Assembly (NCBI GenBank): GCA_961205875.1
Contig: OY540811.1
Span: 35,557,340-35,621,339, forward strand
From: Sialis fuliginosa
Lineage: Eukaryota > Arthropoda > Insecta > Megaloptera > Sialidae
DNA length: 64,000 nt
Reading direction: 5' to 3'
The first letter of the stretch is position 1. Every line of letters starts with the position of its first letter. Position numbers and translations under genes: made by a program. Shown here one piece after another: positions 11,901 through 36,643 of this stretch. Under the pieces are notes generated by a model. It was not told where the DNA came from. It searched no databases and saw only the letters and a list, made by a program, of their open reading frames with translations.

Positions 11901-14900
11901 ATATAGACTTAATGATTGATGAAATGATGAAGGAAATCCATACAAATAATGGTTCTAAAGATCCGCACAGTTATCTTAACAATAATATCGAACACCAAAC
12001 AAGAAGGTAAATATAAAATCAAATATTATCAAATATTATGCAGAATGATAAGAAATTCCTTAGAAAAACGTTTTATATACATATGATAATTTTAATATAA
12101 ATTGAAATGTGCGATATTTTATAAAATTATACAATTAATTATACAGGGTGGTCCGGTTTGAGATACAGATATTTTAGAAGCTGATTCCCTGGATCATTGT
12201 GAGTAAAAAAAAAAGTAATTAAAAGGGCGGTTTATCTTCAACACCCTCTGAGCTACAGGATGTTGAAAAAATTCTTTTAGAGTAGTATTTACAAAGATTA
12301 ACTCATAACTTCCAAAGTAACGTAACTATACTCTATTTCATTTAAGAATGCAGTGGTTGCCAGGGTTTTGACGGTACGAATCGTGCATTTTACAGTCAAA
12401 AACGACGGAAACCTCTGCATTCTTAAATGAAATAGAGTATAGAGCAACCATAATGAGTTAGTTTCATAGGTAATTAATAGAGATTGGAAAAATAGTTTTT
12501 CAACTATTGCGTAAAAATGCTTTTATTGTAATTTTTATTACATTCTCCAACGTTTTCAGAAAACTGGTTTGATTGAACACAATTTGAAATCAACTATTTG
12601 CAACTACTATTCTAACTAATTTTAAACTATTTGCGACACTTTTTACTGCTTCGTTTGCACTAGTTATTATTAAATCATAAAAAAAAAAACTATTTAACAA
12701 CTATTTTCCGAAAAAAAATTCAACTAGTAACTATTTCATTGAAAATAACAACTATTTTTCTAATCTCTAGTAATTAACTAACTTATTTTTCAGTATTTAT
12801 TTATGAGAATGACATTTTTCTCCAAAAGTACCTATTTTTATGATTATTTTGGTGCGTCATAATGTTACCTACAAATTCACCCTGCGAAGTTTGGACCTAA
12901 GGCTTACAGTTGTCCAGTTATAATTTATCTAAATTAATCCCCAAAGTGACTATTTAGCTACCTACCCTATTAAATAAAACAGTCATACATTTTGCTTATA
13001 ATTACAAAATTAGTTTTAAAATTATACAAATTACCATTAACAATAAAAATATGTAATATAAAGAAAAAAATTGTATGACTGTTTCATTTAATAGGGTAGA
13101 TAGCAAAATAGTCACTTTGGGGATTAATTTAGATAAATTTATAACTGGTAAACTGTAAGACCCAGGTCCAAACTTTGTGAGGTGAATTTGTAGTAACATT
13201 ATGACACACCAAAATAATGATAAAAAATACCACATATTGTAGGTACTTTTGGAGAAAAATGTCATTCTCAAAAAAAAAATTTTTTTACTTTGATGAGCAA
13301 TAACTCTTAATTAACTGGAAATAATATATGATAATGGTAATACTAAAATATACGTTAGTTAATTACCTATTAAACTGACTCATTGTGGTTGTTTGCGTTA
13401 CGTTACTTTAGAAGTTATGAGATAATCTACTCTGAAGGAATTTTTTCAACACCCTGTAGCCAGCGGTGGATTTACATTTAGTGCCGCCCTGGGCAAAGAA
13501 AATTGCCACCCCTCTACCAAGGAAAAATATAATCTATTTTTTATATATTTTTCAGAATTACCATATGAACTGAAAAGTGATAACTGTTTTTATAAGTGAT
13601 GTAGAAAAATCGTTTTAATAATCGGAATAATTTTTTGTATTCTTATTTTTTTTAGTGTGTTGTATATTAACCTAAAAAAGTTGTATTCTCCCAGAATCTG
13701 CCGCCCCCCAAAATTTTGTCGCCCTGGGCAGTAGCCCATGTTACCCATGCCTAAATCCGTCACTGAGCTCAAAGGCTGTTGAAAATAGGCCCCCTTTTCA
13801 TTACAATGTTTTACTCACAATGGCTCAGAAAATCAACTCTTAAAATATCTGTATCTCAAACCGGACCAACCTGTATAATTAAGGGATAGAGGGGAAAATT
13901 GAATGCTCTATTACAATAATAAAATTAAACATAAATAAATAAATAAACCTTTTTAAAGATTAATATACCTACTTTTTGCAAAGTTAAATTCAATTCATTT
14001 TCCTCAAATGAAGTAATAGGTTTTTAAAGTAAGCCTAAAATTCATATTTTTTGAAAAATTGATCAAGATGGAGGTTAAATAATTTTTTAAATCAAAATTA
14101 CACCTGTTTTCTTTATATTCACATGAACGTTAATTTTCTCAAACTTTAATAGAAATTACAAAAAACAACAAGAATCTTCTGCATAGGAAAATAATATTAT
14201 GTATTTCAGATACCGTAAAATAGTATATTATACCACGAGGCAATAATGATAGCTATTATTACCGAGGATAATTTTCGAACCGAGCCGCGTAGCGGCGAGG
14301 GAGAAGAAATTCCGAGGTAATAATTGCCATTATTGCGAGTAGTATACTGTACTTTATCCACGACTATTTGAATCACTTTCATAAAATACAACAGAATACA
14401 AGGAATGCAAGCTTCAACAAAACGTCATGTAGAAATGAATATGAATAATGATAAAAAAAGGAAACACTTACACATCAACATGTCACTTTTAAAATACTGT
14501 TCACACTCGCGAAGAGGTTTTATAGTCTTTTTCACTACTTCGTACTATAATTTTTGTAAAGAATAAAAAATTACAATAAACTCGCTGTGATATCACACAG
14601 CTGTGAATGTATATGTCGAACGTTAGTTCCGCAAACAGCCACTAGGGAAATTATCTTGTACCAATATTAGCTTCTATCGCATTTTTCGCATGTAATCACC
14701 TATACGTTTCACTCATTTTAATAGACTTTGGAGTTTGTGTATTTTGTTTCCATAGTATTTTTAATATGAAAAATTGTGATTGGTGCACAAGCGGGTATAA
14801 TGACCATTATACCCGCTTGTGCACCAATCACAAGTTCTCAAATTATTCATTATTCCCTCTGTGAATAATATATAGCATTATATAGTAAAAACTACGTATG

Positions 14901-17900: not shown

Positions 17901-20900
17901 CTTAGACCTATAGCCAGTTCTATTAATGTTGCAAGTAATTTACTAACATAACTAGAAAGCTATACTTAAAATGGCTATTTGTTGGTAAGGATGAATTTTT
18001 GAAGGTATATTTTTATTATTTTTTTGTCTTATTTTTTATCATAGAACAAGAATTTACATTTATTTTTTGTAATTTGAAGCATCCGTATTAAGTAAAATTC
18101 AGCATCCTTTCTTTTGCATCTATATTTCTCGTAAACGGGTTATCCTATGATAAATGAGCAAAGTATATTTTTGTGTATTTTGTGTCAAACAGTCTTATTC
18201 AAATGTCTAACACAGGAAAAAATTAAAGAACAAAAAAATACTAGATAAAAATCGATGGGCCTACTGGCCCCATACAGCCCTGGTCTAAATTATAATTGGT
18301 TAATACTGGAAATCAATAATACTTATTAATACCAAACTCCGTATCAAATTTCATAACTTTAGCATAATGGGTTCTCCAGATATTAAATAAAAACTAATTT
18401 GGAATAAAATTTTTAGAGGGCTGTAGCCCCCTAATGACAAATTTCCGGACACATGTTTATGTAATGGTTTTTGCTTAAAATATTTTTCTCAATCCACGGT
18501 TCAAGTTTGTTCCACCTTATATGACTCACCCTGTATAGTTAACATAAATTTTAAATGTATTGTAACTTACCGTTTGTTTGCTTTTTCTAAGAACTTGTAC
18601 TTATAGCAGCAAACTGAAAACACAGTACTGATGAGAGTTAACTTGCATTTATTTCTATAAAATAAACATGTTGGTTGCTAGACCACATGTTACTAAAATA
18701 GTCCAGTAAAGGAAGCATTTTGAAACGAACTTTTAGGGACAGGCAATTTTATGGTTGATTATTATAGATTTTGGAGCGGAGAATTCGAAAAAAATAACCC
18801 GGACTGGAAAAAAGTGGTGCAACATCCTTAAAAATGGGTTTGAATGGTAAAAACCCCATTTTCAAGCTTTTTTTAAATTTATATCAAAATCTAAATCGTT
18901 GATGGGATATTATTATAGTTGATATTTGTTGGGAACACTCAGACGTATCGATTGAAGAAAGAAAGAAGCATTATTACGTTTTTAAACCCTTTAGAAAGAG
19001 TAATTTTTGGTCAAATATGTGATCCCAATCGATTCGTCTGAGTATCCCCAACAAATATCAACCATAAAAAACCCAATCATCGATTTAGATTTTGAGAAGA
19101 AATGAATAAAAGCTTGGAAACAGAGTTTTCACCCTTCAACCCCATTTTTAAGGGTGTTGCACCACTTTTCTCCAATCCGGGTTATTTTTTTCGAATTCTC
19201 CGCCTTAAAATCTATAATATCAATCATAAAATTACTTGGCCCTAAAAGTTCAATTTTCCTTGACTGGACGAAAATTACAATATGAATAGTAATTTTTGCG
19301 TGCAGGATCGAAATCTATATTATTGATATAGTTTAATTTGTTATACCTAAATCCAAAATTCAAGCTCAAAAATTTATATTATATATTATATTATATTTAT
19401 ATTATAATACTATATATATGAATTATGTATATAATGCTATATATGTACATATATATGTATAATGCCTATATAGGTCGCTTTTTTTGGTACCTCACACTTT
19501 TTTGTGTGGCCGTGTAATTATCTGCAGGTGATCATGGTATCTTTAAAGAGCAAATTATATTAAAAATAATTTAAAATTTAAATTTTTTATTTCCCTTAAA
19601 AAAATTATAATTTCGTAACCCTTTTCACACCATGTTTCGACTATTAGGTATTACCCGAATTACGAGTAAATTTAAAACCTACTCCTTAAAACTGTTGTGA
19701 TTAACCAGTTTTTTTTTTATTTAATAAAATAATATTAATAATTTTGTTTTTTCAGTGTTGATTTGGGTTTCTCGCTAATGGCCCATGGCTTCAACAATAT
19801 AAGTTCAGTTATTGGTATATGGGCAGTTATGACATTTTCAGTCTTTATTGTGTGCCCAACGTTCAAATTTTGGGCAACTGTAAGGGTACAAATGACCCCT
19901 AAATGTAAATATTATCTATTTATATTTATATTGATTGAAAGTACTAATTTTAATACCTTATGTTTTAGCCCAAATGATTAAAATATGGGACCATTTTTGG
20001 ATAGCGGTCTTTTGTTTGTATTTTGCACTTTTCTTGGCCATTCCAGCAAAATTTACTTTCTTATGCCAATTGAAAGCCCCTTCTGCTATGGTCATATTAA
20101 TGGAACAAGTAAGTATTTTTAATGTTTTAGTTTTCCATGTCGAAATCAGTTGAATTATTACAACAAGGTATGAAACAATATTTATAAATAGAGATTGGAA
20201 AAATAGTTGTTATTTTCAATGAAATAGTTGCTAGTTGAATTTTTTTTCGGAAAATAGTTGATAAATAGTTTTTTTACGATTTAATAATAATTAGTGCAAA
20301 CGAAAAGTGTCGCAAATAGTTTAAAAATAGTTTGAAAGGTAGTTGCAAATAGTTGATTTCAAATTGTGTTCAATCAAACCAGTTTTCTGAAAACGGTGGA
20401 GATATGTAATAAAAATTACAATAAATGAATTTTTACGCAATAGTTGAATAACTATTTTTGCAATCTCTATTTATAAATTATTATTTTTCGTGCGTTTTCC
20501 ATGTTTCGTTTCAACACTGGCGTCACGCAACATGGCGCGCAATTGGGAGCTTTTGAAAAGTACCTATTTTTTAAATTTGATATTTTGAAGTCGGGATAAA
20601 CTTTTAGAGTATGAAACAATTGTCTACAATGTTTTTTTACCTCTAAATTACATTAAACAGGTTTTTAGGGGTTTACATTTTTGACCGGATTACTCTATTA
20701 ACCCTCACCCCCCCCCCCCCCACTTACCCTACATAAATTGATATAAATTGTATTATGTTACAAATGTTACAATATAAACACCCTATATTCATTTTTCAGA
20801 CACGTTACCTAATGAAAATGTATGCCTTCGTCAGATCAAATGCTCCTCGTGTTATAGCATACAAACCTCATGCAACGGACACTATTTTACATCCTTCATT

Positions 20901-23900
20901 TGAACAATACTTATACTTTTTGTTTATACCTGCTTTAGTTTATAAAGACCAATACCCCAGGTTTGTACTTACAATCATTTATTTTTAAAATAGCACATTT
21001 ATAACTGAATAAATTCAAATTTAACCTTATATTTCCCAGAACAAAATCAATAAGATGGAACGTCGTATTCTGGTCATTTTCAGAAGTCTTCATTATAATA
21101 ATGTTGCACGGAATATTATTCGGAAAGGTTATATTTCCCAAGTTTGAAAACTTCGGAAAGGAGAAGATGCACTACGCCGACCTCTGTATAGCGATTTTAG
21201 AGAGCGCTTTCCCAGCTATCTGTATATACGTCAGTGGGTTCTATTTAATCTTGCATTGCTGGATGAACGCCTGGGCAGAGTTAATGAGATTCGCAGACCG
21301 TCTTTTCTATCAGGTATTTATTTTAATTGTATCAATAATATTAAGTATTTAACACAAGATAGTTTATCTGGAAAAATAGTAAACCAAAATGCAAGCTTTA
21401 AGGCAGGCCTGCACAACATACGGCCCGCCAGCACCTACCTTGCGGCCCGCGAAGACTTTGGTGAAAATTCATAATATTATAAATTAAAAATAATATTTCC
21501 TAGCTTATTGATTTATAATATTACGAAAGGTATATCGGATGTTTTTTTAAAGATTTTTCAGCGGATTATTTCCAAAATTATGAATTTTCAGAAATGTTTC
21601 AGATAAAAGTTTTATGTTTTGAGGGGGTTAAATATTGACATTATGGGGTGACCTTAGAAAGGTCAATTTAATGGGATTTTAGGTTCAACTTTTCTTTTTC
21701 AAATCTAAACCTATATTTTTTGTTGCATATTCGTAATTTAAGAGATAAATTAAACAACTTTTGTTAGGAATATTTTTTCTGAAAATGTCAATTTTTTATT
21801 GTAAGGAGCAAATCAAAGAGAAATTTCTGGATTTTCCATAATTTTTTTCTCGAAAATGACTAATTTTTAAAAATAATCGCAAGAGGTTTAAAAGTACTTA
21901 GATTTATGCAAAGATTCTGACCATTTTTTTTTTAATATGTAATTCATTTTTTTTTCAAAATTTCAGGATTTTTTTAATAAAAAAGTTGCATAAAAAAAAT
22001 TAACAATAAATTTTAAAAACAATTGTCAGAGAATCCTCAGTTCTTGCTTAGTTCTAAGTATTTTTTTAATTTTATGATTTTTCTTAAATGTTTAGTTTTT
22101 GAGTAAAAAATTATGGAAAATCCAGAAATATCCCTTTAGTTTGCCCCATATCATAAAAAATTGATATTTTCACAAAAAGTTTTTCAAACAAAAGTTGTTT
22201 ATTTTATCTCTTAAGATTTTAAAAAGAAAAGTGGAACCTGAAAATCCATCGAACTGACCTTTCTAAGGTCACTCCATAATGTCAATCTTTAGCTCCCCCA
22301 AAACCATGAAACTTTTGTCCGAAATATTTTTTTTGAAATTTCGTTATTTTGGAAATAATCTGCTGAAAACTCTTTAATAAACACCTGGTATACAGAAAAA
22401 TAATACAAATATTTATTTCATTTTTAAATACACTCATCCAAACAATTAAAGGAACAAGAATTTAAACATTTTTTTTGGGTGTTTTTTGAAGTGCTGTATC
22501 TTTGTGAAAAATGGTCGTATCGAAATAAAACAAAAAGCATTTTAAAGCGTCAAGTTTCTAGTTTTGAGATTTTTTAGCATAATTTTTTTTTGAGTTACAG
22601 TTAACGCGCAATCAAAAGAAATAGTGCGACACAAAAATTTTCCAATTTTTTAAATTTTTTTTAAGGGTCCTCGGGCTTGGGAAATTTTTTTTCAGTTAAA
22701 TCAATGCATTGGTCAGTTAACGTGTTTATTCAGCTTTAATTTGGTTTTTTTTTGTCTCTCTCAATTTTTTTTCGCCGAGATATCTGCCTTTAAATGAAAA
22801 ATGATTCTTTTGTCTTCGATGATCAATATATCAGCAACTAATGATTAAGTAGTAAATTTAAGGGCAGTTTTAAAAACTTGAATAAATTTCCTACAAGACC
22901 CTTTGATGACTTTATTAGAAGAAATTTTTTTTTACCCTCACCATTAGTTTTAAAAAGTACAAAAAAATGACCTTTTATGTTCTTTTAGTAAATCTATCGC
23001 TACTTTACAAATATTGATGAGAAGACTAATGTTGCCAGGTGATTTTACAGCTTAATGTACCCCCAACAGTTCTGTAAATTTTGAAATTGATCCATCCAAC
23101 CGTTTTTCCGAACCGATTGATCAAAGTTTTACAAAACAATTAAAGGAACAAGTGTGTTGTGTAACAGACTGGAACATAACATTGTGTAATCATCATTAAA
23201 ATGAAAAAAAAGATTTTCGATTTTTGATTTTTTTTACAGTTTTGCATAAGTTACTTGTTAAATTTGAAATGGAGAAAAAAAATTCCAAAAAATTAAAAAA
23301 AAAAATTTTTTTTTAATTTTGAATTTTTTTTTTCAAAATTTTTAAAACATTTCAAAAAACAATACTGACTCATTTTTGACACGATTCGGCTTTTGCGTAC
23401 CATAATTTTACTCATCTTGAATTAATTGCATTAATTAATTCTTTCGCAGCGAGAACCGTACGAAATTGTAAAATAATTTTGTCTCGCATGCTGGAATCGA
23501 ATTAATACGCAAGCAAAATTTGATCAATCGGTTCGGAAAAACGGTTCGATGGATCAATTTCAAAATTTACAGAACTGTTGGGGGTACATTAAGCTGTAAA
23601 ATCACCTGGCAACATTAGTCTTCCCATCAATATTTGTAAAGTAGCGATAGATTTACTAAAAGAACATAAAAGGTCATTTTTTTGTACTTTTTAAAACTAA
23701 TGGTGAGGGTAAAAAAAAAATTTTTTCTAATAAAGTCATCAAAGGGTCTTGTAGGAAATTTATTCAAGTTTTTAAAACTGCCCTTAAATTTACTACTTAA
23801 TCATTAGTTGCTGATATATTGATCATCGAAGACAAAAGAATCATTTTTCATTTAAAGTCAGATATCTCGGCAAAAAAAAAATTGAGAGAGACAAAAAAAA

Positions 23901-26900
23901 ACCAAATTAAAGCTGAATAAACAAGTTAACTGACCAATGCATTGATTTAACTGAAAAAAAATTTCCCAAACCCGAGGACCCTTAAAAATTTTTTTAAAAA
24001 TTTGAATATTTGTGTCCCACTATTTCTTTTGATTGCGCGTTAACCGTAACTCAAAAAAAATTATGCTAAAAAATCTCAAAACTAGAAACTTGACGCTTTA
24101 AAATGCTTTTTGTTTTATTTCGATACGACCATTTTTCACAAAGATACAGCACTTCACAAAACACCCAAAAAAAATGTTTAAATTCTTGTTCCTTTAATTG
24201 TTTGGATGAGTGTATAATAATTTAAAAATATTATTATGTTCTTAATAGCTTTCCCCCCTGCCCTATTTTCTTTCGGCCCGCACAAGTTTTTCATAAAGTA
24301 TTACATTTTGAGTTGTGCATGCCTGCTTTAAGGCTTTAAGGCTTGGCATCTAAGAATAACGCTCTGACGCGGCGCGTCGACCTCGAAAATCTGTTGAAGC
24401 GTTATTCTTAAATTTAAAAAAAAAACCCTGTGGCTACAAACAGTCCACGTAGTACTTCGGAACCCAGCGTTTCTCAATCTTTTTGTATTTGTGACCCAAT
24501 TTTCAATCATACTTATCATCGCCCCTCAACCCCCATCATACAATAATTTTATTAACCCTTCTTTCGAAAAACTTTGCTCTACAAGATAGGCTCAAGGGAG
24601 TCACTTATAATTATTATTAATCTTGTTTTTAATTTAATATTGATAAGTTAATTATTAAATACATTGTACAGTAGGTACTGATACAATTCTATTTATCAGT
24701 GTAAATGTAAACGTGTATTTTATTTTTTATTATGTCAGAATGTATTTTATTGCTTTTCTTTTAGTAAATTAAATAAATTTTTTAATAATATTTTTTTCTC
24801 GTTATGCTCGTGCCTCCAGTTAGTTTTATCACGCCCCCCCCCCTAGGGGGGCGCGCCCCATAGGTTGAGAATCGCTGACCGAATTATTAAACAATTTTTT
24901 TTGGGCAGAACAACTTTTTCCGGGTCAACTATATCATAGGTGTCCAACCTTTTCAACCTTCTGGGCCGCATAGCAGAAATTTTATTTAATTTAATTTACT
25001 AAGGGCCGCAGGCCAGAATATAAAACTGAGGACTTTTTTTTTAGTCGTACTAATTTAAATGTAAATTTATTACTTTATAATTTTTTTTATTATTATCCTC
25101 GTGGGCCACACTAAGGCTCCTCATGTGGCCGCATGTGACCCGCGAGCCGCGGGCTGGACAAGCTTGAACTACATCATTATATCAAATCGTAAATATCTCG
25201 GTTTCTATGCGATGTTTTTCCCACTAATACCGGTGGTATTTTTCCCGTCAATTGAATGAAAATAATTCAACCCTCCATACGTGACAGGGAATGAAATATT
25301 AAATTCTTCTTTTGTTTTGCTTTTTATTCATTATACAAAATCGTAAATATCTCGGCTCCTATGCGGGATAGAAGGTTGTTTCCCCCCTAAAACCTAAAAT
25401 GTTATTTTGTTTTTTAATTGTTAATTATTTAATTATATATGCAACTAACTATTTGTAATAACTCGCAATTACAATTAATTGTTAGCAATTTAAAAAGTCA
25501 ATATAATTGTTAATTGCTTTTACAATTAATTTTTGCCCAACACTGTTTACACCAAAGCTAAACTATATGTATAGTTGTATAGCTATGTATGATAGTAATT
25601 ATTAATAATTTTAATAGAATGTATATGTGTAGAAATTGCTTATCTTCTTCATTGCTTTACTAATGATATTGGTGCATTCGAAAAATGTTAAATTAAACAT
25701 TTTAATTATATATGTACATTAGGATGGGCCAAATTGTATAGAAGGTATTTTACCGACCTCGGCTACCCTCCCCTACGTGAAAGTACTCTCAATTCTAAGA
25801 AAAAACGTCCATGGAACTATACCTCTACATTCAACTTTAGTTCGCCGCATTTTTGATTGCAAATTTTAAGTTCCTTGAAATCAATATGTATGTATGTTAA
25901 TATATGTACATGAAAATTTACAATTTGTCATTGATTTTTTTAAGCAAAACACCAACCCAAGGGTTTTTGGGTACGAGGATTCCAAATTTGACATACATTT
26001 ATTTCTTGAGCGCCACCTGGCACCAGTTTTGGAAACAAACTTAAAATTTTCAATCAAAAATGCGGCGAACTAAAGTTGAATGTAGAGTTCCATGGGCGTT
26101 TTTTCTTAGAATTGAGAGTACTTTGAAGTAGAGGGGTAGCAGAGATCGGTTGGAAAATTGGCCCACCCTAATGTACATATGTTCATTTACATTAAGTACA
26201 TTATTTCAATCCTCGACACTTATAATAAACATTTTCATTTTTTTAAAACATATTTACTTACAAATAATTAATTAAAATAATTTGAGGGACAATTTGTTGA
26301 AACATTTTTTTTCTTATTGCTTAATATATATTTTAACACTAATACTAAATATTCATCTTGGTAAATTGTACAGATACAAGAATTATTCATGTATAATAAT
26401 GTATATGGATTAATAACTAACCGACAATGCACGATCTGAGCTTCTGGAATGAGTTTATATAATTTTAGACTTCGAGATATAAGCTGCATTTTTTTTCTTC
26501 TTTGGCCAATGTATAGTTTTCCTCAATAGTAAAACTATACACTGTAAACAAGTACACTCTGCACCGGACGCGAATTACTGTTAGAACGAGAGGTTACCCT
26601 GGGGCGATCAAGGCAAGAGACACTCACGAGGCCCAGGAATAATGGGTTAATTCCTAGGGAACACACATTAGGGTCTAAAATTATAAGCTGCGTTTTCTTG
26701 GTCATAGTATTCGTTTTTAAAAGTGCACTTTCAGTAAAAAAAATGCAGTTTATATCTATACAGTAGATGTTCATTACCTACTGTGAATGTCCATACTGTG
26801 AACCGTGCCGACGCAATCAGTTCTATTATAAACGATAACTGTACAAATATATGCCTTGAGGAGTAAAGCACTTTATCTTTGAAATCCGACAAAATTGTAG

Positions 26901-29900
26901 AATACTTTTTGGTTCTCTATAAAATTACAAAAAAATCTTAACTCGCTACGCTCATTTGTTTCGGAAATTGGTAAATGAAAAATTGACTGAAAATGCTCAA
27001 AGCCACGGAAAATGCCATTTTTTCGTATATCGACTCTTTTTTAATGATTCGGATGAAAAAAATCTTATTTTACATCGATTTTATAGCTCTGGGGACTGGC
27101 TGAACAATAAAATAGATATATACCCATGGAAGAAGTTTTTCTCTATACCATTCTCAGCAGCCCCCCCCCCCCTCCAAAAGAAACATTACATTAATCATAA
27201 AATTAAAAAATAAAAGTAAAATTAAAACTTCCTCTTGGGCGGGGCTGGTGGGGAATAGCATAAATAAAAACTTCTGCTATTTTATAATCCATAACGAAGG
27301 CATACACCGCGCAGCAGAAGATTTCATTCGGTATTTTAGATTTTACAGCATTTTTAAGATTTTGACTCAATTTTGGCTATTTGTAGGCCTAAAGCACCGA
27401 AGTCCCTACATAAAAAATTCTGCTTTTATCTAAGTGTATGTCAAAATAAACATTTTGCACCAGGTCTGGTCCGGTTGCTCCTTAAAATTTTGAAGGGGCT
27501 CCGTAATAAAGTTCCTAGGAAAAAATTTCTGCGGAACATCAAAAACATATTTAATTGGGGTCTACTTTAAGTAACTGTCACTTCCAAGCGGTTGTAACGC
27601 GAAAAATTTGTGCGTATTTTTCGTGGACCCTATCTATTAAACCCCTATAAGCTGCTAGACCGGACACATCGTCTGAATGAGTACTTCAAAGTAACCGCAA
27701 CGGCAGACGGTTGTAAAACCTACACCGATTATACAACTGGCTGCTATAGGGATTCATACTCATAGTATTGAACGTACCGTGCCCAAACCGGTTCACAGTA
27801 TGGAACATGTACTGTACCAGTCAATAATCATTCAGTGTAGTGGACCCAACATTATATAACAAACAAACTTTATGTACACGCGTTAAAAGTTATACTTCTT
27901 TGGCGTGATTGAAAAACAACTACGAATAAGCTTAAATAAGTTTATAAAAATATAACAATATTCTGCTATTTACTTCAAAATTAAAAACTTAATTTAATTA
28001 TAAAATTTAATATGTATTAAATTGTTGAATTTAATTAAGCAAACATAAGGTTCGATTACATTGAGCGAGTTTACAAGCTACAAGCCAGCTTGTTTACAAG
28101 CGAGCGAGTCAGATACAGTAAGATTGTGATGATGACACACAAAACGTTCCACTCGCTCAGTAGCCAACTAGCTAGCGAGTAAACCACGTGTTGTGAATAC
28201 ATTTTATAGACACTGAAACCAGGAATCACCGAGAATACTAGCAGCTAACGAACTATCTACTATGTATGATGACACACAGCTAGTTTACTAGCTAGCGAGT
28301 AAAGTAGCTCGGCTTTCAACTTTTGTAGCAGATTGTTTACAAGCAGCTTGTAAACAAGCTGGCTTGTAGCTTGTAAACTCGCTCAATGTAATCGACGCTT
28401 TTATGATAGAGTACTTATCGAAACTTTTATTGATTTATAAAATAACTAGCGGATTGGACCCGGTGTTACCCGGGGATATTAATTTAATTAAAAAATCATA
28501 TTTTAACTGACGACGCTTTTTTAAATGTTAATACGAAGTGCATTGCGATGAAATCCCTATACTTCGTAGATATGTTACTTACATTTTTTGAGGTTGGCTA
28601 AATAGATATAACTATGCCCATGCAGTTAACACGCATTTTTATTTGTGCTCTATTCCAATTTACTTATGCTATTCTTGTAGATTAGACCAAGAGGAAAAGC
28701 ATAACTAAACCTGATTAGTTATATCGGGTGTAAAACGCCATCTACACAAACTTTTACACCAGGTTTTATTACATCGGTTATTGTAAAACCGGAATAACGG
28801 CGCTGTGTAAACGTACTCATTGTTCCTTGACCATGTAGCATGTCTACTATGCTCCGCGCGCTTTCCGTTGCGTTGCATTATTAAAATATCACCCTCAACG
28901 CGCCTAAAGAAGTATAACTTCAAAAAAATGATATAGTGGGTTAAGAGCAAATTTATATTTTTCTATAGGATTGGTGGAACTCGTCAAAATTCAGTACTTT
29001 CTATCGATTTTGGAATGTTGTGGTTCACGATTGGCTTTATACATACGTCTTCCAAGACGTATCTGACTATATAGTACGTGGACGACGAAACCTATCTGTG
29101 ATCGCCGTTTTTATGCTATCGGCTGTATTCCATGAATTCATATTATCAATGGCGTTTGGATATTTTTATCCAGTTTTATTCACTTCTTTTGTTATCTGTT
29201 CGTTCCCTCTTGTATTTATCGATACATCTAAAAATAAAGTTGTAGGTAATATGTTAGTTTGGTGGTGCATTACCGTCGGTAATGGTATAGTGTATTCATT
29301 ATACACAGTGGAATACTATGCTAGACAGCATTGCCCAATGACTAAATCACCGTTAGTGGACTTCTTCGTGCCAAGAACGTTTAGCTGTGATGCCATTGTA
29401 TATGATACAAATTAATTATCTTTACATTGTACAATGTATTTATTAATTATTAATAAAATAGCATATTTAAAATTTATATGTAATTCAAATTATTATTCCT
29501 GAAATGTACTGAATTAACTTATTTAAATACAGCTGAAGTAAGGATGAAAAATATTAGTGATAAATTATATTTAATCAAGATAGTTAAGGGATGGTAATTA
29601 ACCCGTGTCAATGGTAAAGTACTCGTTGACCTTTTTCGATTTCATTCGATGAGCTTAGTATGTAATTATTTTTTGTAATTTTAAGACTCTGTCAAACAGG
29701 AAGCGGACTGTCCGCACGGACAACCGCAAACTCTATATCGTGTAATGTTTCATTACCATGGTCAAAGAGAAAGCGACCTACCGCGGCGGACAAGTTCAGT
29801 CCGCGGCGAACAGCGAACTGGTTGTAAATATTTACAAAGTTTGTGCGCGAACTGGATGGCAAAATGAGTAAAAGAGAAGATAATAATGAAAAGTTGATTG

Positions 29901-30977
29901 ATCTTGTGCGGTAGTGCAGTTGTTTGTATGACATCGCTTCAGTATTTAGCACGGAAAACAACCCTCTCGAACGTAGAATGCCTAGTCACTATATAGAATG
30001 CCTGCATTATGCACACTGACTATGGCATACCCATTTTTTTTTCGTCTTGCTGCTGAACTCACAGCTAACAAAAGAAGTAATTCTTCTTCGTCAGACGAAC
30101 TGCTGGACACGATGATCACTAGATGAAAAAAGAATTCGCCCTGGTTCGCCGTCACTTGCGCGTTCTATTTGACCACCCTAGTCCGCGGCAGACTGCGGGC
30201 AGTCCGCTTCCTTTTTGACAGAGCCTTTATGGGCATCCAGGAATGCATTTATTGTAATACCATTTCTAGTCTAGATTTAACCGAACCTTGGTTAATAGAT
30301 AAGGTACCCGTGTATCTTCGTATTCTCTCATTTATGTACCTATTAAGATGAAATTTTGTATACGAACGTAGATTGATGACTCAAAAACAAAAATTATGAA
30401 GTTTTTGAAAAACAAATTTTTGGACCCCCCTCCCATAGACTGAAAACTGTACTCAAAAAAAAAAATTTACTTACCCCAGTGAGTGGGGTATTTTTAGATA
30501 AGTCTCCTAAAATGCAACAAAAAAATGTTCTAGGACCTTTTGACTTTAACCCTTTAGTTCACGAGAGCAGAAAAGAAATATAATTAAGAAATTTATCTAT
30601 TTATTTGCAATAATAACAATAGTTCAATCCTACACTTGCCATAATAAAAACACAACCGTTTATAATATCGAAAATTTTACACTGATGTAAAATAACATTT
30701 GCTTTCTATTTACATATTTTCATTGATTTTAAAATGATTGTTGTAAAATAAAAATTAAGGTCACTAACAATAACATTAAGTTTGAAGAATATTCCTCAAC
30801 CTACGACGGTTCGCACTTTTTTCAAAACTTTATTGTACAATAATTCTCAAACACAAATAACAAAATAAATAAAATTCAACAATAGAACTTTTTTTTAAAT
30901 ACACGGCCATGTAACTTAAATAACAAATTGAATTATATATCGAACAATCTTTCTGTTTTTTTTTTTTATGAAACTCG

Positions 30978-31010
<33 letters not shown>

Positions 31011-34000
31011 CATTATTATATGTTGTACATATACTTTGCTTTCTCTTCATTTGCTACATGCGCACCTTTATCGACAATTAATTTAAAATTTTCTTCAGGA
31101 TTGGTGGAACAGTACATCGTACAGTCAGTATTACCGTCTGTGGAACGTAGTCGTCCATGACTGGCTTTACACTTATGTTTACAAAGATACTTTAGAACAT
31201 ACAACCAGCGGAAAACGAAGTCTATCAATGATCGCGGTCTTTATGCTATCCGCTGTATTCCACGAATATATTTTAACTGTCGTGTTCGGATTCTTTTACC
31301 CAATCATGTTTATATCTTTCGGGGGTATTGGTGTTATATGCGCATTTATTAATACGTCTAAACATAAGGCACTTGGAAACGTGTTCTTCTGGTGGAGTTT
31401 GAGCATTGGCAATAGTTGGATGATTGTTTTGTACACGATAGAATACTTCGCCAGACAAAACTGTCCAATAACTAACGAGAATCTGCTCTTAGATTTCTTT
31501 ATACCGCGTACATTTACTTGCGATGCTTTAATATTGTAATGAATTAATAAACAAGTGATGTAATTACATTTCAAAAGCAATATAGTCCAATCAAATTTTG
31601 ATAGGTGACAAATGGAATACATATTCGCCTGGATAATTTTAGTGCCGATCGATGGCTAATAATGTCCTTAATAAAATATTAAATTTGCAAGGTTGTGAGC
31701 CCTCGGGAAATACACAAAAAAAAATAAAAACAAAAAGCTTATGTTTAAATCATCATCGATATAGCGAAAACGATGTGAGCTAGAGCAAAACTGAACAGGA
31801 CCCATTTGATAGAGAATAAAATTTCATATAAAAAATAATATAGTTATTATTATATACTCAAAAACTTATTAACTTTAGAGATATGGTCATCGAAAGTCTC
31901 ACGACTAAAATATAATTTTTGAAAAATGTCGCTTTATGTCTCGATCAGCTGTAAAAAGGGATATTGGTATTTAACGATTAATAAAAAAAATTCATTGTTT
32001 AACTAGGTACTATTAGGAAGTTATTTATGGGTTCAAAATGGTTTTCACTTTGAATTGTAACTATAGGAGCTACATCAAGAGATTTTTTTTGTATTTTTTT
32101 TCCTTCTTTCTAGAGAATAAAATCACCTATAAAATGCATTACATTGTTTTATTCTACGTTGAATAGTTTTTAAAATACGTAATACTCAAAAAAGACAAAA
32201 AAATTACAAAAAAATTCCTTGATGTAGCTCTTATAGTTACAATTCAAAGTGAAAACCATTTTTGAACCCATAAATAACTTCCTAATAGTATCTAGTTAAA
32301 CAGTGAATTTTTTATTAATCGTTAAATACCAATATTCCTTTTTACAGCTGATCGGGACATAAAGCGACATTTTTCAAAAATTACAATTTAGTAATGAGAT
32401 TTTCGACGACCATCACTCAAAAACTATTAACTTTAGAGATATGAACTTTATTAATTTTTTATAGGAAATTTCATTCTCTATCAAATAGGTCCTGTTCAGT
32501 TTTGCTCTAGTTCACATCGTTTTCGCTCCATAGATGATTTAAACATAAGCGGTGGTCAAGTTTTTTGTTTTTATTTTATTTTTTTGTATTTCCCGGGGGC
32601 CCACAACCTTGCAAATTTAATTTAGCCATCGATCAGCACTAAAATTATCCAGGTGAATATTTATTCCAGTTGAATATCTAATTTGGTTGGACTAATACGT
32701 TATAATTGTATAAAATAGTATTTTTATTTAGTAAATTTTATTACATCACTAAATTCAATAAAAATATTATGGAGGCCACACACGCTACGAGAAATCGCTA
32801 CGATGCCACTCTACAGTTCCAACGACACAGTTAAACGTAAATTCATACTGTCTACTAGAGATGGGAAAAATGAGTCTTTTTAGTGACTCGATTTGAATCA
32901 ATTCAGTAATAAGAATCGTTCGTACTGATTCGTTCAGTAAGTCGTTGCAAAAAGAAAAATTGAAGACCTTTTTTTTTTTAATTTTTTTTTGCTCACATAA
33001 AAAAAATTGTTTATATGTATATTGTAATTATTGTACAATATGATACGAATCTTTTCTTTTATATTTTACAATATAATAAAAAAAGAACAATTATTTTTTA
33101 AAATACTGACTCGAGTCGATTCGTTCATCGAAAATAATCGTTCCGAAAGAACGAATCGTTCATGAATTACACATCTCTACACATATTACGACAAAACTGT
33201 ACAGTTATTCATTTAAAAGTCAAAATTTTTAAAAAGCTGACACTGAAAACTACCCAAAAATTGTATAGTTTTTATATATGTGGAACAAAATCAAATCCGA
33301 CCACCTATTAAAAGTTACAGCGATTTTTCTTCTAATAATAAGTTTTTAAAAAGCTGACACTGAAAATTACCCAAAATTTTTATATTTTTTTATCTTATAT
33401 TAGATTTTTTTAAAGTATTTTTATTTGTGTATTTTATAGATTTTTACACGCTGATTTCAAATATGTCGAGCAAAATCAAATCCGACCATTAAATTGCACC
33501 GTTTTCTTCGATAACGATTTATCAATTCAAATTTTGCTATTGCCCCGTTCGACGGTACAGTTCAATAAAATCGTACAAAACTGTTTCTCATACACACGTT
33601 ACAATTTATCGTTGCAGTTCGAAATGTACAGTGCGATCCAACGGCGGATTTAAGCATGGGCAACATGGGCTATTGCCCAAGGCGGCAAAATTTTTTAGTT
33701 TAATACACAACACTAAAAAAAATGAATACAAAAAATTACTCTGATTTTCAAAAAGATTTTTCTACATCTTGTAAAAATTCGCTGACGATTTCAATTGTCC
33801 TCATTTTTCAAATATCGTATCTATCAACTGAACTACTGAGTTAATCAACTTGCTGCCATCTGTGTACCAACTCAATAACTACATCCGCCCATATTTATTT
33901 ACTTCAACAATCGCATATTTGAAATATGTGATTGTTGAAGAAAATAGGTTATATTTTCCCTTGGTAGAGGGGTGGCAATTTTTTTTGCCCAGGGCAGCAT

Positions 34001-35405
34001 TTAACGTAAATCCGCCGCTGGTGCGATCGTAGCGATTTCTCGTGTGGACATTAGTACTAAACGTTAAAATATTCAAGTAATTATAATTTAGATATAGAAA
34101 CTAGTACAAACTAGGGTGTACCTGGTAAAAGACTCTTTTAATATGATTTTACTATTTCTGTTTTTAAGATATTATATAACGCTGATAGTTTTCAAATTCA
34201 GTTAATTAAATTGATTTATATTTAACACTGTATGTACAAAATTAAATAACAATTTTAAATACTGTGATGATGATTATTATTATTATTAAATTAATTTTTA
34301 TTTATTTATTTATTTAATTATTTAATAGCAGAATAAATATAACTGTAGGTAGGTGGAAACCAAATTTTCTGCTTTCATCGCTAAATAATTTTGCTTACAA
34401 TTATGTCCGGTATTATAAAGGAGCTCGCAAATTTTCTAGCTTGCAAGCACTCTCAAATGAGATATCAAACTTATATGACAGTTATCTTTGAGTTTGTTGA
34501 AGACTGACAAGTTTCGCGCACGCGTTGTAGTTAAACACCAACGGTATTAAAACAGTGGTGATATTATGAAAATTATTTTGTACGGTCAAAGTCGCCAACT
34601 GTGTTACAATTAGTTGAAGTATCACTGCTCTAAATTCCATATCTAATCCATAGATACTAGTACAAAATTAATACCCCATTTGAGAGTGCTTGCAAGCTAG
34701 CAAATTTTGCGAGCTCCTTTATAATAACGGACTTTAGTATCACAATTCAAATGAATATTATATCATATAAAAATATATAAATTGTTTGTCATATTTCATT
34801 ATCTTGTACATATTCTTCTGGGATGTAAAAATATCCTCTTTTAATTGCATTTCCATTTTATGTAAATATCAAAATCAATTAGTAATTTATTATGGATATG
34901 AAAAAATATTCTTAATTAATATGCTTGACAAAGTGATTGAATATAATTTTATTTTATTTTTATTTAGGATTGGTGGAATACTGCCGCTTATAAAGACTTT
35001 TATCGAGTTTGGAATGTTCTCGTCCACGATTGGCTAAGCAAATTGGTTTATCAAGATATACTTTTAGTTCATTTTAAATTGAGTCAAACTATGGCAAAAA
35101 TTTTAGTATTCCAGATATCAGCTATAATTCATGAATATATCCTAGTCTTCATGTTAGGCTTCTTTTTTCCAGTATTGTATATCCATTTTGGATTTTTTGG
35201 GACACTTTTCGTATTTGTCAATACATCTAGAAATAAAACATTTGGAAACTTTTTCATGTTGATATCATTATTTATGGGTATTAATATAATTATTTGTTTA
35301 TACACCATAGAACATTTTGCTAGAATTAATTGCCCACTTACCAGAGATCCATTGATAGATTTCTTTATACCAAGATCGTTTTCTTGTAATGCTGCATTAA
35401 ATTAA
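8918..35405 (+). CDS. SOAT: Sterol O-acyltransferase (ACAT/SOAT, MBOAT family), spliced gene with three alternative last exons
   Basis: Membrane-bound ER enzyme family that transfers a fatty acyl group from acyl-CoA to the 3-hydroxyl of a sterol to make storage esters. Eight exons (8918-8969, 10933-10982, 11864-12006, 16137-16301, 19756-19904, 19969-20108, 20800-20960, 21040-21313) join in frame to 378 codons with GT-AG borders. One of three last exons (28969-29415, 31099-31539, 34968-35405) then completes a 526-, 524- or 523-residue protein, close to the roughly 550 residues of vertebrate SOAT1. Seen motifs: KEYIARNSPLDDLF near residue 92, WAT in exon 5, EQYLYFLF in exon 7, HCWMNAWAELMRF in exon 8, the family FYxDWWN motif split exactly by the last intron (FYQ/DWWN), and the catalytic His in HEF/HEY at residue 433. 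The start ATG opens a hydrophilic lysine-rich cytosolic N-terminus. Exon order and phases are read from sequence; isoform use is inferred. Confidence 0.9.
8970..10932 (+). other. SOAT intron 1, with foldback-family fragment
   Basis: Contains a block at about 9437-9980 (CAGGCTGGGGCATTTACAG start) related to the complete MITE at 38373-38709, a poly-G run near 9157 and AT-rich sequence. No gene seen. Confidence 0.5.
10933..10982 (+). CDS. SOAT: SOAT exon 2
   Basis: Acceptor TTTCAG ends at 10932 and donor GTAAGT starts at 10983. The 50 nt restore phase 0 and add DDVNKEEKNETVRHQIK, a charged cytosolic segment with no recognised domain. Support comes from phase compatibility with exons 1 and 3 and strong splice sites. 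Confidence 0.7.
10983..11863 (+). other. SOAT intron 2
   Basis: AT-rich. A 119-codon open frame at 11405-11764 has no recognisable domain and no codon signal. Nothing else seen. Confidence 0.4.
11864..12006 (+). CDS. SOAT: SOAT exon 3
   Basis: Acceptor TTTTAG ends at 11863 and donor GTAAAT starts at 12007. The exon gives 47 codons plus two bases. The peptide includes LMIDEMMKEI, a helical charged stretch like the one preceding the first membrane segment in SOAT proteins, and ends in QTRR. The split codon is completed to Arg by exon 4. Confidence 0.75.
12478..12769. mobile_element. hAT MITE (TAGAGATTGGAAAAATAGTT), 8-bp TSD
   Basis: Inverted ends TAGAGATTGGAAA/TTTTTCTAATCTCTA. Exact 8-bp duplication GTAATTAA on both sides. 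Same family as 20189-20469, opposite orientation. Confidence 0.9.
13461..13765. mobile_element. hAT-like MITE (CAGCGGTGGATTTA)
   Basis: Starts CAGCGGTGGATTTAC and ends CTAAATCCGTCACTG, with GCCGCCCTGGGCA subterminal blocks. Related to 33639-34020. It interrupts one arm of the foldback element; the other arm gives the empty site. Confidence 0.75.
14206..14936. repeat. Palindromic repeat cluster with GC-rich hairpin
   Basis: Inverted pair TTATCCACGACT (about 14354) / AGTCGTGGATAA (about 14922). Beside it is a local inverted block GCAATAATGATAGC...GCGGCGAGG...TTGCCATTATTGC (14240-14340). No coding content. Confidence 0.5.
14774..14833. repeat. Perfect 29-bp hairpin
   Basis: Arms 14774-14802 and 14805-14833 are exact inverse complements (TTGTGATTGGTGCACAAGCG... 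outward) with only two bases, AC, between them. Sits in SOAT intron 3. Confidence 0.95.
15300..15870. repeat. Dispersed repeat shared with 61540-62470
   Basis: Blocks such as ACATGTAACATGACGCCCTC, ATGCCAAGGCATGTGGCACG and TTGGTGGGACTACCAAC recur at 61540-62400. Successive near-repeats of a 'TCTAACTCAAAAATG...GGGGCTAAAA' unit. Non-coding. A poly-C run lies near 15182. Confidence 0.6.
16137..16301 (+). CDS. SOAT: SOAT exon 4 (first membrane segment)
   Basis: Acceptor TTTGCAG ends at 16136 and donor GTAAGT starts at 16302. It encodes KEYIARNSPLDDLFKAKH, the clearest family signature in the N-terminal half (vertebrate SOAT has KEFIARNS in the same place). A hydrophobic stretch, IYHIAITFLIIYF, follows as the first likely transmembrane helix. 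Confidence 0.9.
17356..18533. mobile_element. Foldback element, CAGGATGATTCAG family
   Basis: Ends CAGGATGATTCAGTGCTGTC and ...TATATGACTCACCCTG flanked by TA. The arms are inverted over most of 1.2 kb (for example GATTTCCAGTATTGAGCAATTA and its inverse). Same family as 52460-53589 and related to 40329-45641 and 63041-63798. Confidence 0.8.
18711..19269. repeat. Foldback element (GTCCAGTAAAGGAAG)
   Basis: GTCCAGTAAAGGAAGCATTTT at the left is answered by AATTTTCCTTGACTGGAC at the right. Internal arms share GAGAATTCGAAAAAAATAAC in inverse. Confidence 0.75.
19756..19904 (+). CDS. SOAT: SOAT exon 5, with a competing upstream splice donor
   Basis: Acceptor TTTCAG ends at 19755. The exon contains a hydrophobic helix and the family landmark FKFWAT. 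The frame of exon 6 requires one base left over, which selects the GTAAAT donor at 19905 and keeps VRVQMTPK. The resulting spacing from WAT to the next helix matches vertebrate SOAT (WAT, about 17 residues, then an LFHGF/IWDHF-type stretch). A stronger-looking donor, GTAAGG at 19880, would shift frame and meet TGA within three codons of exon 6. Confidence 0.85.
19969..20108 (+). CDS. SOAT: SOAT exon 6
   Basis: Acceptor GTTTTAG ends at 19968 and donor GTAAGT starts at 20109. It encodes the membrane-rich block from QMIKIWDHFW through PSAMVILMEQ. The end corresponds to the FIIIFEQ stretch of vertebrate SOAT. Only 64 bp separate it from exon 5, giving a very short intron. Confidence 0.88.
20189..20469. 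mobile_element. hAT MITE (TAGAGATTGG), 8-bp TSD
   Basis: Inverted ends TAGAGATTGG/CAATCTCTA with exact duplication TTTATAAA at 20181-20188 and 20470-20477. In SOAT intron 6; sister copy at 12478. Confidence 0.9.
20800..20960 (+). CDS. SOAT: SOAT exon 7
   Basis: Acceptor TTTTTCAG ends at 20799 and donor GTTTGT starts at 20961. It encodes the conserved MKMYAFVRSNAPRV and FEQYLYFLFIPALVYKDQYPR regions, which align directly with VMKAHSFVRENVPRV and QYLYFLFAPTLIYRDSYPR of vertebrate SOAT1. The loop between them is variable in the family. Confidence 0.93.
21040..21313 (+). CDS. SOAT: SOAT exon 8 (last shared exon)
   Basis: Acceptor TTTCCCAG ends at 21039 and donor GTATTT starts at 21314, leaving phase 0. 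It encodes IRWNVVFWSF, two hydrophobic helices and HCWMNAWAELMRFADRLFYQ, the family block ([20 protein letters not shown] in vertebrates). The exon stops exactly between FYQ and DWWN, so any of the three downstream phase-0 exons can be joined to give the intact FYxDWWN motif. Confidence 0.93.
21533..22392. repeat. 860-bp foldback element nested in hAT MITE
   Basis: Left TCGGATGTTTTTTTAAAGA and right TTAATAAACACCTGGTA are inverted. The arms also pair across GGGGTGACCTTAGAAAGGTCA and its inverse. Confidence 0.75.
22431..24212. mobile_element. 1.78-kb near-perfect foldback element, TA target site
   Basis: Ends CACTCATCCAAACAATTAAA and its exact inverse, flanked by TA. The two arms of about 870 bp pair along their whole length with few mismatches around an A/T-rich centre near 23300. 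No open frame. The TA target suggests Tc1/mariner-type mobilisation, but no transposase is present. Confidence 0.9.
24351..24410. repeat. 60-bp inverted repeat
   Basis: Perfect 13-bp arms TAAGAATAACGCT / AGCGTTATTCTTA around a GC-rich middle (GACGCGGCGCGTCGAC). Confidence 0.8.
24465..24877. mobile_element. hAT-like MITE (CAGCGTTTCTCAATC)
   Basis: Ends CAGCGTTTCTCAATCTTTTT and GGTTGAGAATCGCTG, the hAT 'CAGNGNTTCTCAA' pattern. Target duplication not clear. Its interior is related to 39226-39500. Confidence 0.8.
24938..25166. mobile_element. hAT-like MITE (AGGTGTCCAACC)
   Basis: AGGTGTCCAACCTTTTCAACC and GGGCTGGACAAGCTT are inverted ends with GC-rich GGCCGCA/GCGAGCCGC subterminal blocks. Confidence 0.65.
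25710..26180. repeat. Foldback element (ATATGTACATTAGGATGGGCC)
   Basis: Outer ends and the internal TTTAGTTCGCCGCATTTTTG block are present in inverse on the other arm. About 470 bp, non-coding. Confidence 0.85.
26780..27820. repeat. Degenerate foldback element
   Basis: TGTCCATACTGTGAACCG at the left and CGGTTCACAGTATGGAACA at the right are inverted. The middle (26900-27700) is mostly unpaired; open frames there are short and match nothing. Confidence 0.5.
28047..28402. mobile_element. Foldback MITE (CGATTACATTGAGCGAG)
   Basis: CGATTACATTGAGCGAGTTT and its inverse at the right end, with repeated AGCTTGTTTACAAGC palindromes. The sister element at 54250 shows the empty site (CAAACATAATGATAGAG), which confirms the insertion. 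Confidence 0.85.
28490..28815. repeat. Partial copy of the 35433-36228 element
   Basis: Shares GTTAATACGAAGTGCATT, ATGAAATCCCTA, TTTTTGAGGTT and the right end AACGGCGCTGTGTAAACGTA with the full copy. The left half is missing. Confidence 0.75.
28969..29415 (+). CDS. SOAT: SOAT terminal exon A (catalytic C-terminus, isoform A)
   Basis: Acceptor TTTCTATAG ends at 28968. The frame is 148 codons plus TAA. It begins DWWNSSKFSTFYRFWN, continues with VVVHDWLYTYV, then MLSAVFHEFIL with the predicted catalytic His at codon 55 of the exon (nt 29131-29133), YFYPVLF, GNMLVWW, EYYARQHCP and ends in VPRTFSC plus a short tail. AATAAA at 29452 follows the stop by 37 nt. It lies 7.7 kb from exon 8, and its acceptor is about 45 bp past the inverted end of a foldback element (27873-28922). 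It is an intact coding exon with no frameshift. Confidence 0.9.
   Translation, partial: DWWNSSKFSTFYRFWNVVVHDWLYTYVFQDVSDYIVRGRRNLSVIAVFMLSAVFHEFILSMAFGYFYPVLFTSFVICSFPLVFIDTSKNKVVGNMLVWWCITVGNGIVYSLYTVEYYARQHCPMTKSPLVDFFVPRTFSCDAIVYDTN
29452..29457 (+). promoter_or_regulatory. Poly(A) signal for SOAT exon A
   Basis: AATAAA 37 nt after the stop of exon A. Confidence 0.6.
29683..30226. mobile_element. Foldback MITE (GACTCTGTCAAACAGGAAGCG)
   Basis: GACTCTGTCAAACAGGAAGC at the left and CTTCCTTTTTGACAGAGCC at the right are inverted, as are the adjacent GGACTGTCCG/GGGCAGTCCG blocks. Lies between exons A and B. Confidence 0.8.
30290..31098. other. Spacer between SOAT exons A and B
   Basis: Contains a repeat related to 3580-3830 (AACGTAGATTGATGACTC, CCAGTGAGTGGGGTATTTTT) and a (CATA)n tract at about 30984-31012. 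No gene seen. Confidence 0.5.
31099..31539 (+). CDS. SOAT: SOAT terminal exon B (catalytic C-terminus, isoform B)
   Basis: Acceptor TTTTCTTCAG ends at 31098. The frame is 146 codons plus TAA. It starts DWWNSTSYSQYYRLWN and carries VVVHDWLYTYVYKD, then MLSAVFHEYIL with the His at codon 55 (nt 31261-31263), FFYPIMF, EYFARQNCP and IPRTFTC. AATAAA at 31546 follows just six nt after the stop. It resembles exon A over its whole length, and its first 16 residues are the closest of the three to vertebrate SOAT1. No upstream SOAT exons are repeated between A and B, so B is not a separate full gene copy here. Confidence 0.9.
   Translation, partial: DWWNSTSYSQYYRLWNVVVHDWLYTYVYKDTLEHTTSGKRSLSMIAVFMLSAVFHEYILTVVFGFFYPIMFISFGGIGVICAFINTSKHKALGNVFFWWSLSIGNSWMIVLYTIEYFARQNCPITNENLLLDFFIPRTFTCDALIL
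31546..31551 (+). promoter_or_regulatory. Poly(A) signal for SOAT exon B
   Basis: AATAAA six nt after the stop of exon B and 34 bp upstream of a foldback element, so the 3' UTR of this isoform could be very short. Confidence 0.55.
31585..32692. mobile_element. Foldback element (GTCCAATCAAATT), TA target
   Basis: GTCCAATCAAATT and AATTTGGTTGGAC ends flanked by TA. The arms pair over about 500 bp each (for example GGATAATTTTAGTGCCGATC and inverse). Confidence 0.85.
32868..33178. mobile_element. hAT-like MITE (TAGAGATGGG)
   Basis: Starts TAGAGATGGGAAAAATGAGT and ends AATTACACATCTCTA, with GATTCGTTC/GAACGAATC subterminal repeats typical of hAT elements. Confidence 0.7.
33639..34020. mobile_element. 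hAT MITE (CAACGGCGGATTTA), 8-bp TSD
   Basis: Ends CAACGGCGGATTTAAG and CGTAAATCCGCCGCTG; exact duplication GTGCGATC at 33631-33638 and 34021-34028. Same family as 13461-13765. Confidence 0.9.
34407..34733. repeat. Foldback MITE (GTCCGGTATTATAAAGGAG)
   Basis: Left TTATAAAGGAGCTCGCAAAT and right ATTTTGCGAGCTCCTTTATAATAACGGAC are inverted. Half a copy also lies at 17088-17175. Confidence 0.8.
34968..35405 (+). CDS. SOAT: SOAT terminal exon C (catalytic C-terminus, divergent isoform C)
   Basis: Acceptor TTTTTATTTAG ends at 34967. The frame is 145 codons plus TAA. It starts DWWNTAAYKDFYRVWN, then VLVHDWLSKLVYQD, ISAIIHEYIL with the His at codon 55 (nt 35130-35132), FFFPVLY, EHFARINCP and IPRSFSC. 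It is the most divergent of the three: the basic RGRRN/SGKRS segment of A/B is replaced by a more hydrophobic stretch, and WW after GN is lost. The frame is open and family positions are kept, arguing for function. No AATAAA lies before the TA-flanked foldback element at 35433; the first one (35476) is inside that element. Confidence 0.85.
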   Translation, partial: DWWNTAAYKDFYRVWNVLVHDWLSKLVYQDILLVHFKLSQTMAKILVFQISAIIHEYILVFMLGFFFPVLYIHFGFFGTLFVFVNTSRNKTFGNFFMLISLFMGINIIICLYTIEHFARINCPLTRDPLIDFFIPRSFSCNAALN

Positions 35406-35475
35406 TATTTCTATTTTATGTATCATATATTACGTTTACACAGCGCTGTTATTCCGATTTAACTATCACCGATGT

Positions 35476-35481
35476 AATAAA
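35476..35481 (+). promoter_or_regulatory. Candidate poly(A) signal for SOAT exon C, supplied by a transposon
   Basis: First AATAAA after the exon C stop (71 nt downstream); it lies inside the left arm of the 35433-36228 element. Confidence 0.4.
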
Positions 35482-35897
35482 ACCGTTTTAAGTGGTGCTG
35501 TTTACACATGCGATAATAAGTGACGTCAGCTGGAATTATAATTCCGATTTGAAATACGCTATAAGTTCGATGGTGTACCAACAAGAAATCTCAAAAAATA
35601 TTTCGTCTCTTTTATGTCCCACGAATCACGTTTCTTTTGTTTTTCATCTCTTCGTCTCAGGTGTTTTAAACATATTTTAACTGCCAACGCCTTTTCAAAT
35701 GTTAATGCGAAGTGCATTACGATGAAATCCCTATCTTCGTAGATACTTATATTTTTTGAGGTTAGTTAAATATATTTAACTATGTCCATGCAGTTTACAC
35801 ACATTTTTATTCCTGATCTATTCCGGTTTAGTTATGCTATTCCTGTAGAGTAAGAAGAATAACATTACTAAACCCGATTAGTTATGTCGGTTATAAA

Positions 35898-36141
35898 TAG
35901 GGTGACCAGATTTTAGTTTTGGTAAACCCTGAGATGTAAATGAAGACCCCTTTTTTATTTTATCTTATCTTCTTTTTTTTTATTCTTTTTTTTTCATAAA
36001 ATTTGTTACCATAATCTGCACTGTTATTTCCCCTGCTTTTTGACGACCTTTTTTTTTAGCCGTCCTCATTTTTTTTGAGCCCGGAGATCCAGTGTGCAAA
36101 CCCTGAGACTCCGGGTCAAAACCAGAGACCTGATCACCCTA
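35898..36141. mobile_element. MITE (TAGGGTGACCAG), 8-bp TSD
   Basis: Ends TAGGGTGACCAGATTTTAG and GAGACCTGATCACCCTA; exact 8-bp duplication GTTATAAA on both sides. Copies at 48509-48700 and in part near 3515. Confidence 0.85.
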
Positions 36142-36228
36142 GTTATAAAGCGCCATCTACACGAACTTTTACACCCGGTTTTATTACATCGGTTATAGTT
36201 AAATTGGAATAACGACGCTGTGTAAACG

Positions 36229-36643
36229 TACTCATTGGCACCTAATGTTATACATAATATGAAAAGTATTTATTTTAGTTATATGGACTTTTTATTACAA
36301 AACCATTTGTGAAAAGTACAACACAAAAATATGTACAAATGTATTTAATTTTTAAGGCACAATTTTATATTAATTATAGTTATTATTTTATTGAATAAGA
36401 TATAAGGGATATTATCTAAGACAATAATTGAAGTTGGATAGTGAATTTTCTCTACTGTATTAATTACAATAAATACAACTATGTGTAACTAAAACTCATT
36501 ATATTATAATTCGACAATATTGTATACTCGATCATACAATAACATAATTTTTATTATGTATTATGATCTTACAGAATTTTTAAATTATATTAGTTTTTTG
36601 TAAATAAAATTTAAATAAATATTATAATATGTATATTATATTA
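36229..36643. other. AT-rich spacer between the two genes
   Basis: Several AATAAA-like hexamers and AT-rich sequence; no coding content seen. It could hold the distal 3' UTR of the exon C transcript. Confidence 0.4.

Follow-up and report, generated by a model that had tools for sequence, protein, structure and literature searches.

A sterol O-acyltransferase gene of Sialis fuliginosa with three tandem candidate endings, each encoding the catalytic region

A sterol O-acyltransferase (SOAT) gene of Sialis fuliginosa combines one set of 5′ exons with three homologous, in-phase terminal exons that each carry their own stop codon (exon 1 is too short for the copy test), and we suggest that alternative choice among these endings probably allows the one gene to make up to three enzymes with swapped C-terminal halves. 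The gene lies in a window of 64,000 nucleotides, by which we mean the whole stretch of DNA that was analysed; the window is located on a chromosome-sized contig (36.8 Mb) of an assembly that amounts to 392 Mb in 20 contigs.

The shared 5′ part consists of eight exons on the + strand (8918-8969, 10933-10982, 11864-12006, 16137-16301, 19756-19904, 19969-20108, 20800-20960 and 21040-21313), which splice into a single open frame of 1134 nt, or 378 aa, with GT/AG at every intron. Aligned to human SOAT1, these exons extend from the cytosolic N-terminus through M6, and 103 of the 300 aligned residues are identical. Exon 8 ends in phase 0 with ...RFADRLFYQ, and the intron that follows it and precedes the first alternative ending (21314..28968, + strand) is 7.7 kb long; its donor, CAG|gtattt, and that of exon 7 each depart from gtaagt at two positions, compared with at most one position in the other six. 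When the shared part is joined to the second of the three endings (B), the human proteins that it matches are SOAT1 (1e-101), SOAT2 (5e-94) and DGAT1 (5e-31), and the homology to human SOAT1/SOAT2 (PDB 6p2j, 6vum, 7n6q) runs over residues 76-521 of the combined model. Judged by this ranking, with the SOAT match ahead of DGAT1, the gene is a sterol O-acyltransferase of the MBOAT family, the identity that the preliminary description had assigned to it.

The three terminal exons lie on the + strand at 28969-29415 (A, 148 aa), 31099-31539 (B, 146 aa) and 34968-35405 (C, 145 aa), with spacings of 1.7 and 3.4 kb between them. Every one is preceded by AG, starts in phase 0 with DWWN and closes with its own TAA; coordinates and open frame confirm the earlier outline of eight exons followed by three phase-0 DWWN endings with separate stops. 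The proteins they encode are 56.6% (A/B), 44.4% (A/C) and 49.7% (B/C) identical, with tblastn E values of 3.8e-58 to 8.6e-43, and each ending matches the Pfam MBOAT family PF03062 by itself, at 57 (A), 83 (B) and 63 (C) bits against a cut-off of 27 bits. Because of this mutual identity and of the individual MBOAT matches above the cut-off, the endings are not chance open frames. A joint profile of the three matches SOAT1 (1e-46), SOAT2 (4e-43) and DGAT1 (4e-13). When they are aligned to human SOAT1 and read against its topology as given in the available part of PMC7234994, each ending contributes the loop between M6 and helix D, helices D and E themselves, M7-M9 and the CT loop. B looks the least changed of the three: it is identical to human SOAT1 at 72 of 142 aligned residues, compared with 58 in A and 64 in C, and residues that are conserved in the other four sequences are altered at 1 of 37 positions in B, 6 of 42 in A and 8 of 44 in C. 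A six-sequence tree groups A with B in 67% of 100 bootstraps, the placement of C (35%) resting on a near-zero branch.

H460 (in M7), N421 and W420 are named as active-site residues of SOAT; more than 90% of the activity of human SOAT1 is lost when W407, S414, Y416, Y417, R418, W420 or N421 is replaced by alanine/cysteine, and L515 contacts an inhibitor in the chamber (PMC7234994, available part). All three endings retain W407, Y417, R418, W420, N421, H460, Cys528 and Cys546, the last two forming the disulphide of the CT loop; the H425 and E461 positions are retained in all three as well. The FYxDWWN motif is complete in every case, FYQ coming from exon 8 and DWWN from the ending. Together with the Pfam matches, these residues uphold the earlier statement that each ending holds the MBOAT catalytic region. 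Human SOAT1 and SOAT2 have the same W420, N421, H460 and CT-loop cysteines as the gene described here; the difference, the human enzymes being compared as proteins, is that here one exon encodes the segment from D406 to the end and exists in three versions. At the S414, Y416, Y417 and R418 positions of helix D, B keeps four of four residues, A three (F at 416) and C two (K at 414 and F at 416), and the position of L515 is Y in A and I in both B and C. It counts against a model of three enzymes that A and C share F at Y416 and that C also has K at S414, since these are costly sites in human SOAT1. Human DGAT1 carries T at 414 and F at 416, so neither site is invariant across the family at large.

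Codon models returned pairwise omega values of 0.09 (A/B), 0.26 (A/C) and 0.18 (B/C), exact figures that are soft because the synonymous distances (3.8, 2.0 and 2.6) are near saturation; omega = 1 was rejected for every pair (2dlnL 63.0, 22.1 and 30.3, respectively). A three-branch, free-ratio model, for which two starts were used, gave omega as 0.14 for A, 0.05 for B and 0.74 for C and was better than one ratio by a 2dlnL of 7.96 (2 df). Fixing omega at 1 cost about 10.1 in 2dlnL on branch A, an approximate test because one branch length reached its bound in that fit, 9.2 on branch B and 0.1 on branch C, where the two fits were nearly equal (lnL -1396.05 at omega = 1 versus -1395.99 free). 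Relative to its own synonymous rate, C evolved faster than A and B, and by the branch test alone it is compatible with relaxed selection or neutral drift. It is barely credible, in our view, that the enzyme comes from a single ending and that the remaining two are non-functional exon copies: such a reading must contend with three intact frames, with active-site residues that have been kept, and with the rejection of omega = 1 on all pairs and on branches A and B.

The C branch gives more substance to a reading in which only two endings are used, with C either lagging as an exon under relaxed selection or having lost canonical SOAT activity and perhaps serving as a regulatory or non-catalytic subunit. 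Its omega is indistinguishable from 1, the free-ratio model is the better one, and the S414 position is occupied by K; even so, we think this reading unlikely, since C is free of stops over its 145 codons and keeps 36 of the 44 residues that A, B, SOAT1 and SOAT2 have in common. When B was evolved neutrally in simulations, only 1 of 400 sequences was stop-free at 0.35 substitutions per site (the estimate for C at omega = 1), and a mean of 19.2 and a maximum of 31 of the 44 residues were kept. At 0.5 substitutions per site, none of 400 was stop-free and a mean of 14.3 residues was kept; at 0.2, a weaker control, 2.5% were stop-free, with a mean of 26.9 and a maximum of 37 residues. The simulation covered substitutions only, which makes it conservative, and the intact frame and residue retention of C argue against its decay.

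Within the window, the best match of the shared 378 aa outside their own exons had E = 1.8 in a search to E 10. Genome-wide, at E up to 1 over 392 Mb, the same query found its own exons 2-8 and one place on contig C4 (E = 0.086), exon 1 (17 aa) being too short for such a search, which missed it at its true position as well. The search of the assembly turned up no further copy of exons 2-8, in agreement with the claim made at the outset that the N-terminal exons are not duplicated, and since exons 2-8 occur once among these matches, no alternative 5′ part was found for B or C; further N-terminal exons for these endings elsewhere, proposed earlier as a sign of assembly error, did not appear in the whole-assembly search for exons 2-8. 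Searched genome-wide at E up to 1, B and C returned A, B, C, the gene on contig C4 and one weak match each (E 0.80 and 0.47), and a search of the assembly with the MBOAT family gave 10 matches, namely A, B, C, the gene on contig C4 and six on contigs C1, C2 and C11. Against human proteins, the exon on contig C4 matches DGAT1 at 4e-34, SOAT2 at 6e-16 and SOAT1 at 4e-13; because the DGAT1 match beats the other two, we regard that gene as DGAT1-like, and as far as these searches reach, the present locus is the only SOAT gene found in the assembly. Relatives of the endings were also sought in viral and prokaryote contigs, where 4, 12 and 22 pattern matches were obtained and none was confirmed; insects are not expected there. 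The DGAT1-like gene (L003, 1237-1848, - strand) has FY and DWWN within one open frame, and its catalytic region, by eye, is seemingly split by an intron past the active-site His, which differs from the SOAT gene.

These searches bear on two further readings of the locus. B and C could belong to full-length tandem SOAT genes, the assembly having dropped or collapsed their N-terminal exons, and there are repeats around the array; this we hold to be highly improbable, because the window is gap-free, without a single N, and exons 2-8 turned up just once in the search of the 20 contigs (392 Mb). Moreover, a collapse would have to remove N-terminal exons only, A, B and C themselves being just 44-57% identical. 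Alternatively, B and C could have promoters of their own and be joined to exons 1-8 by trans-splicing, for which lola and mod(mdg4) in Drosophila are precedents. Some such joining would be called for if those promoters existed, since B or C by itself would encode no more than a fragment of the enzyme and the search revealed exons 2-8 at no other place, but the simple layout on one strand, with its 1.7 and 3.4 kb spacing, requires no trans-splicing, and we consider this explanation very unlikely.

In the terminal-exon choice that we favor, the last exon of the SOAT gene would have undergone two ancient tandem duplications. Exon 8 would be spliced from 21313 to one acceptor, at 28969, 31099 or 34968, and cleavage and polyadenylation past the chosen exon would terminate the mRNA. 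Because every ending has its own stop, the three predicted proteins would be mutually exclusive, never carrying two endings together. From the DNA we infer the use of all three junctions, a mode of choice in which alternative 3′ splicing and polyadenylation naturally account for the mutual exclusivity, and differences in activity between the isoforms. The cytosolic N-terminus, M1-M6 and the FY of FYxDWWN would be common to the isoforms; the DWWN lid helices and M7-M9, with the catalytic histidine and the CT loop, would be swapped. It seems likely that the isoforms are tuned to different sterol or acyl-CoA partners or to different tissues, B perhaps serving as a general-purpose, ancestral-like form and A and C as specialised ones. 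We give about an even chance to the proposal that this one gene yields three acyltransferases with swapped intramembrane catalytic halves and that C, altered at the helix D serine, possibly has a new acyl-CoA or sterol specificity.

The signals surrounding the endings say less about how a choice would be made. The acceptors of A, B and C score 2.43, 5.73 and 6.87, all inside the wide range, -0.25 to 8.43, that leave-one-out scoring gives for the seven shared acceptors, two of which fall below A. An apparent weakness of the A acceptor was dropped as a candidate feature: the shared acceptors had been scored in-sample, and leave-one-out scoring puts A in range. AATAAA occurs at 29452 after A, at 31546 after B and at 35476 after C, the last being the sole copy within 700 nt of that ending and lying in a repeat. 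This hexamer is expected 1.1-1.7 times per 600 nt locally, so its presence downstream of each exon means little, and poly(A) signals were rejected as evidence. Competing RNA structures were screened for in the first 300 nt of the intron and the 250-nt upstream regions; no 8-mer is shared among the three upstream regions, and the energies of duplexes formed by these regions with that stretch of the intron did not stand out against shuffles, of which 37 of 60 (A), 54 of 60 (B) and 37 of 60 (C) came out at or below the observed value.

PGRP-LC of Drosophila is an immune receptor, and the class I GST gene of Anopheles has alternative 3′ exons that join a common N-terminal half to one of several C-terminal halves. 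The GST is a soluble enzyme whose substrate half is swapped, whereas in the SOAT gene it would be the catalytic half. Tandem homologous terminal exons of which one is chosen at a time are described for Drosophila pip, and the 3′ variable regions of PGRP-LC are mutually exclusive in one pre-mRNA (PMC9013439). The product of pip is a sulfotransferase, with eight clusters that the available part of this source discusses as 3′-UTR exons, whereas the enzyme here is a membrane-embedded acyltransferase. Competing RNA structures that select the ending have been reported for PGRP-LC and pip, and not for all such genes, in the available part of PMC9013439; the PGRP-LC choice involves such structures, whereas our limited screen gave no sign of them here. 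Human UGT1A likewise diversifies one enzyme by a tandem exon array, but its array stands at the 5′ end, with a promoter for each first exon, and the array of the SOAT gene stands at the 3′ end (PMC9013439). The preliminary description had stated that no described SOAT gene was known to have this arrangement. That is partly borne out, in that the matches listed in the open literature (subscription journals lie mostly outside) included no SOAT gene, or other MBOAT gene, whose catalytic terminal exons alternate, but the plan itself is already known from pip and PGRP-LC (PMC9013439). The gene would thereby extend an established splicing plan to a family of enzymes for which we found no report of such a plan.

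Insects are not known to make sterols and depend on storing and mobilising those from the diet. Should the array be in use, the only SOAT locus that we found would diversify the catalytic half of its product with M1-M6 held fixed. The lateral tunnel at M4-M5 falls in the fixed part, as do the M1 and M6 portions of the dimer interface; M9, likewise at the dimer interface, belongs to the swapped part (PMC7234994, available part). MBOAT enzymes are a family with drug targets, and three natural chimeras, if real, would test which residues of M7-M9 and of the cytosolic lid set substrate choice in this family.

Several features of the surroundings deserve mention in their own right. The array of endings is flanked on either side by equally oriented copies of one repeat, at 28494-28822 and 35668-36237, with pieces that are 83-91% identical. 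Two inverted pieces, 35431-35485 and 36176-36230, resemble terminal repeats, and the AATAAA of ending C lies within the former. A neighbouring gene at 54572-58708 (- strand) has an open frame of 1378 aa that is Ser/Asn-rich by eye and has no Pfam match at E 0.001. TTAGG repeats are abundant in the assembly, with 6197 overlapping matches to a 25-mer and none to the reversed control, as befits an insect or another arthropod. An open frame of 962 aa at 49279-52167 (+ strand) contains an RVT_1 reverse transcriptase domain (E 8e-35) and appears to belong to a non-LTR-like element.
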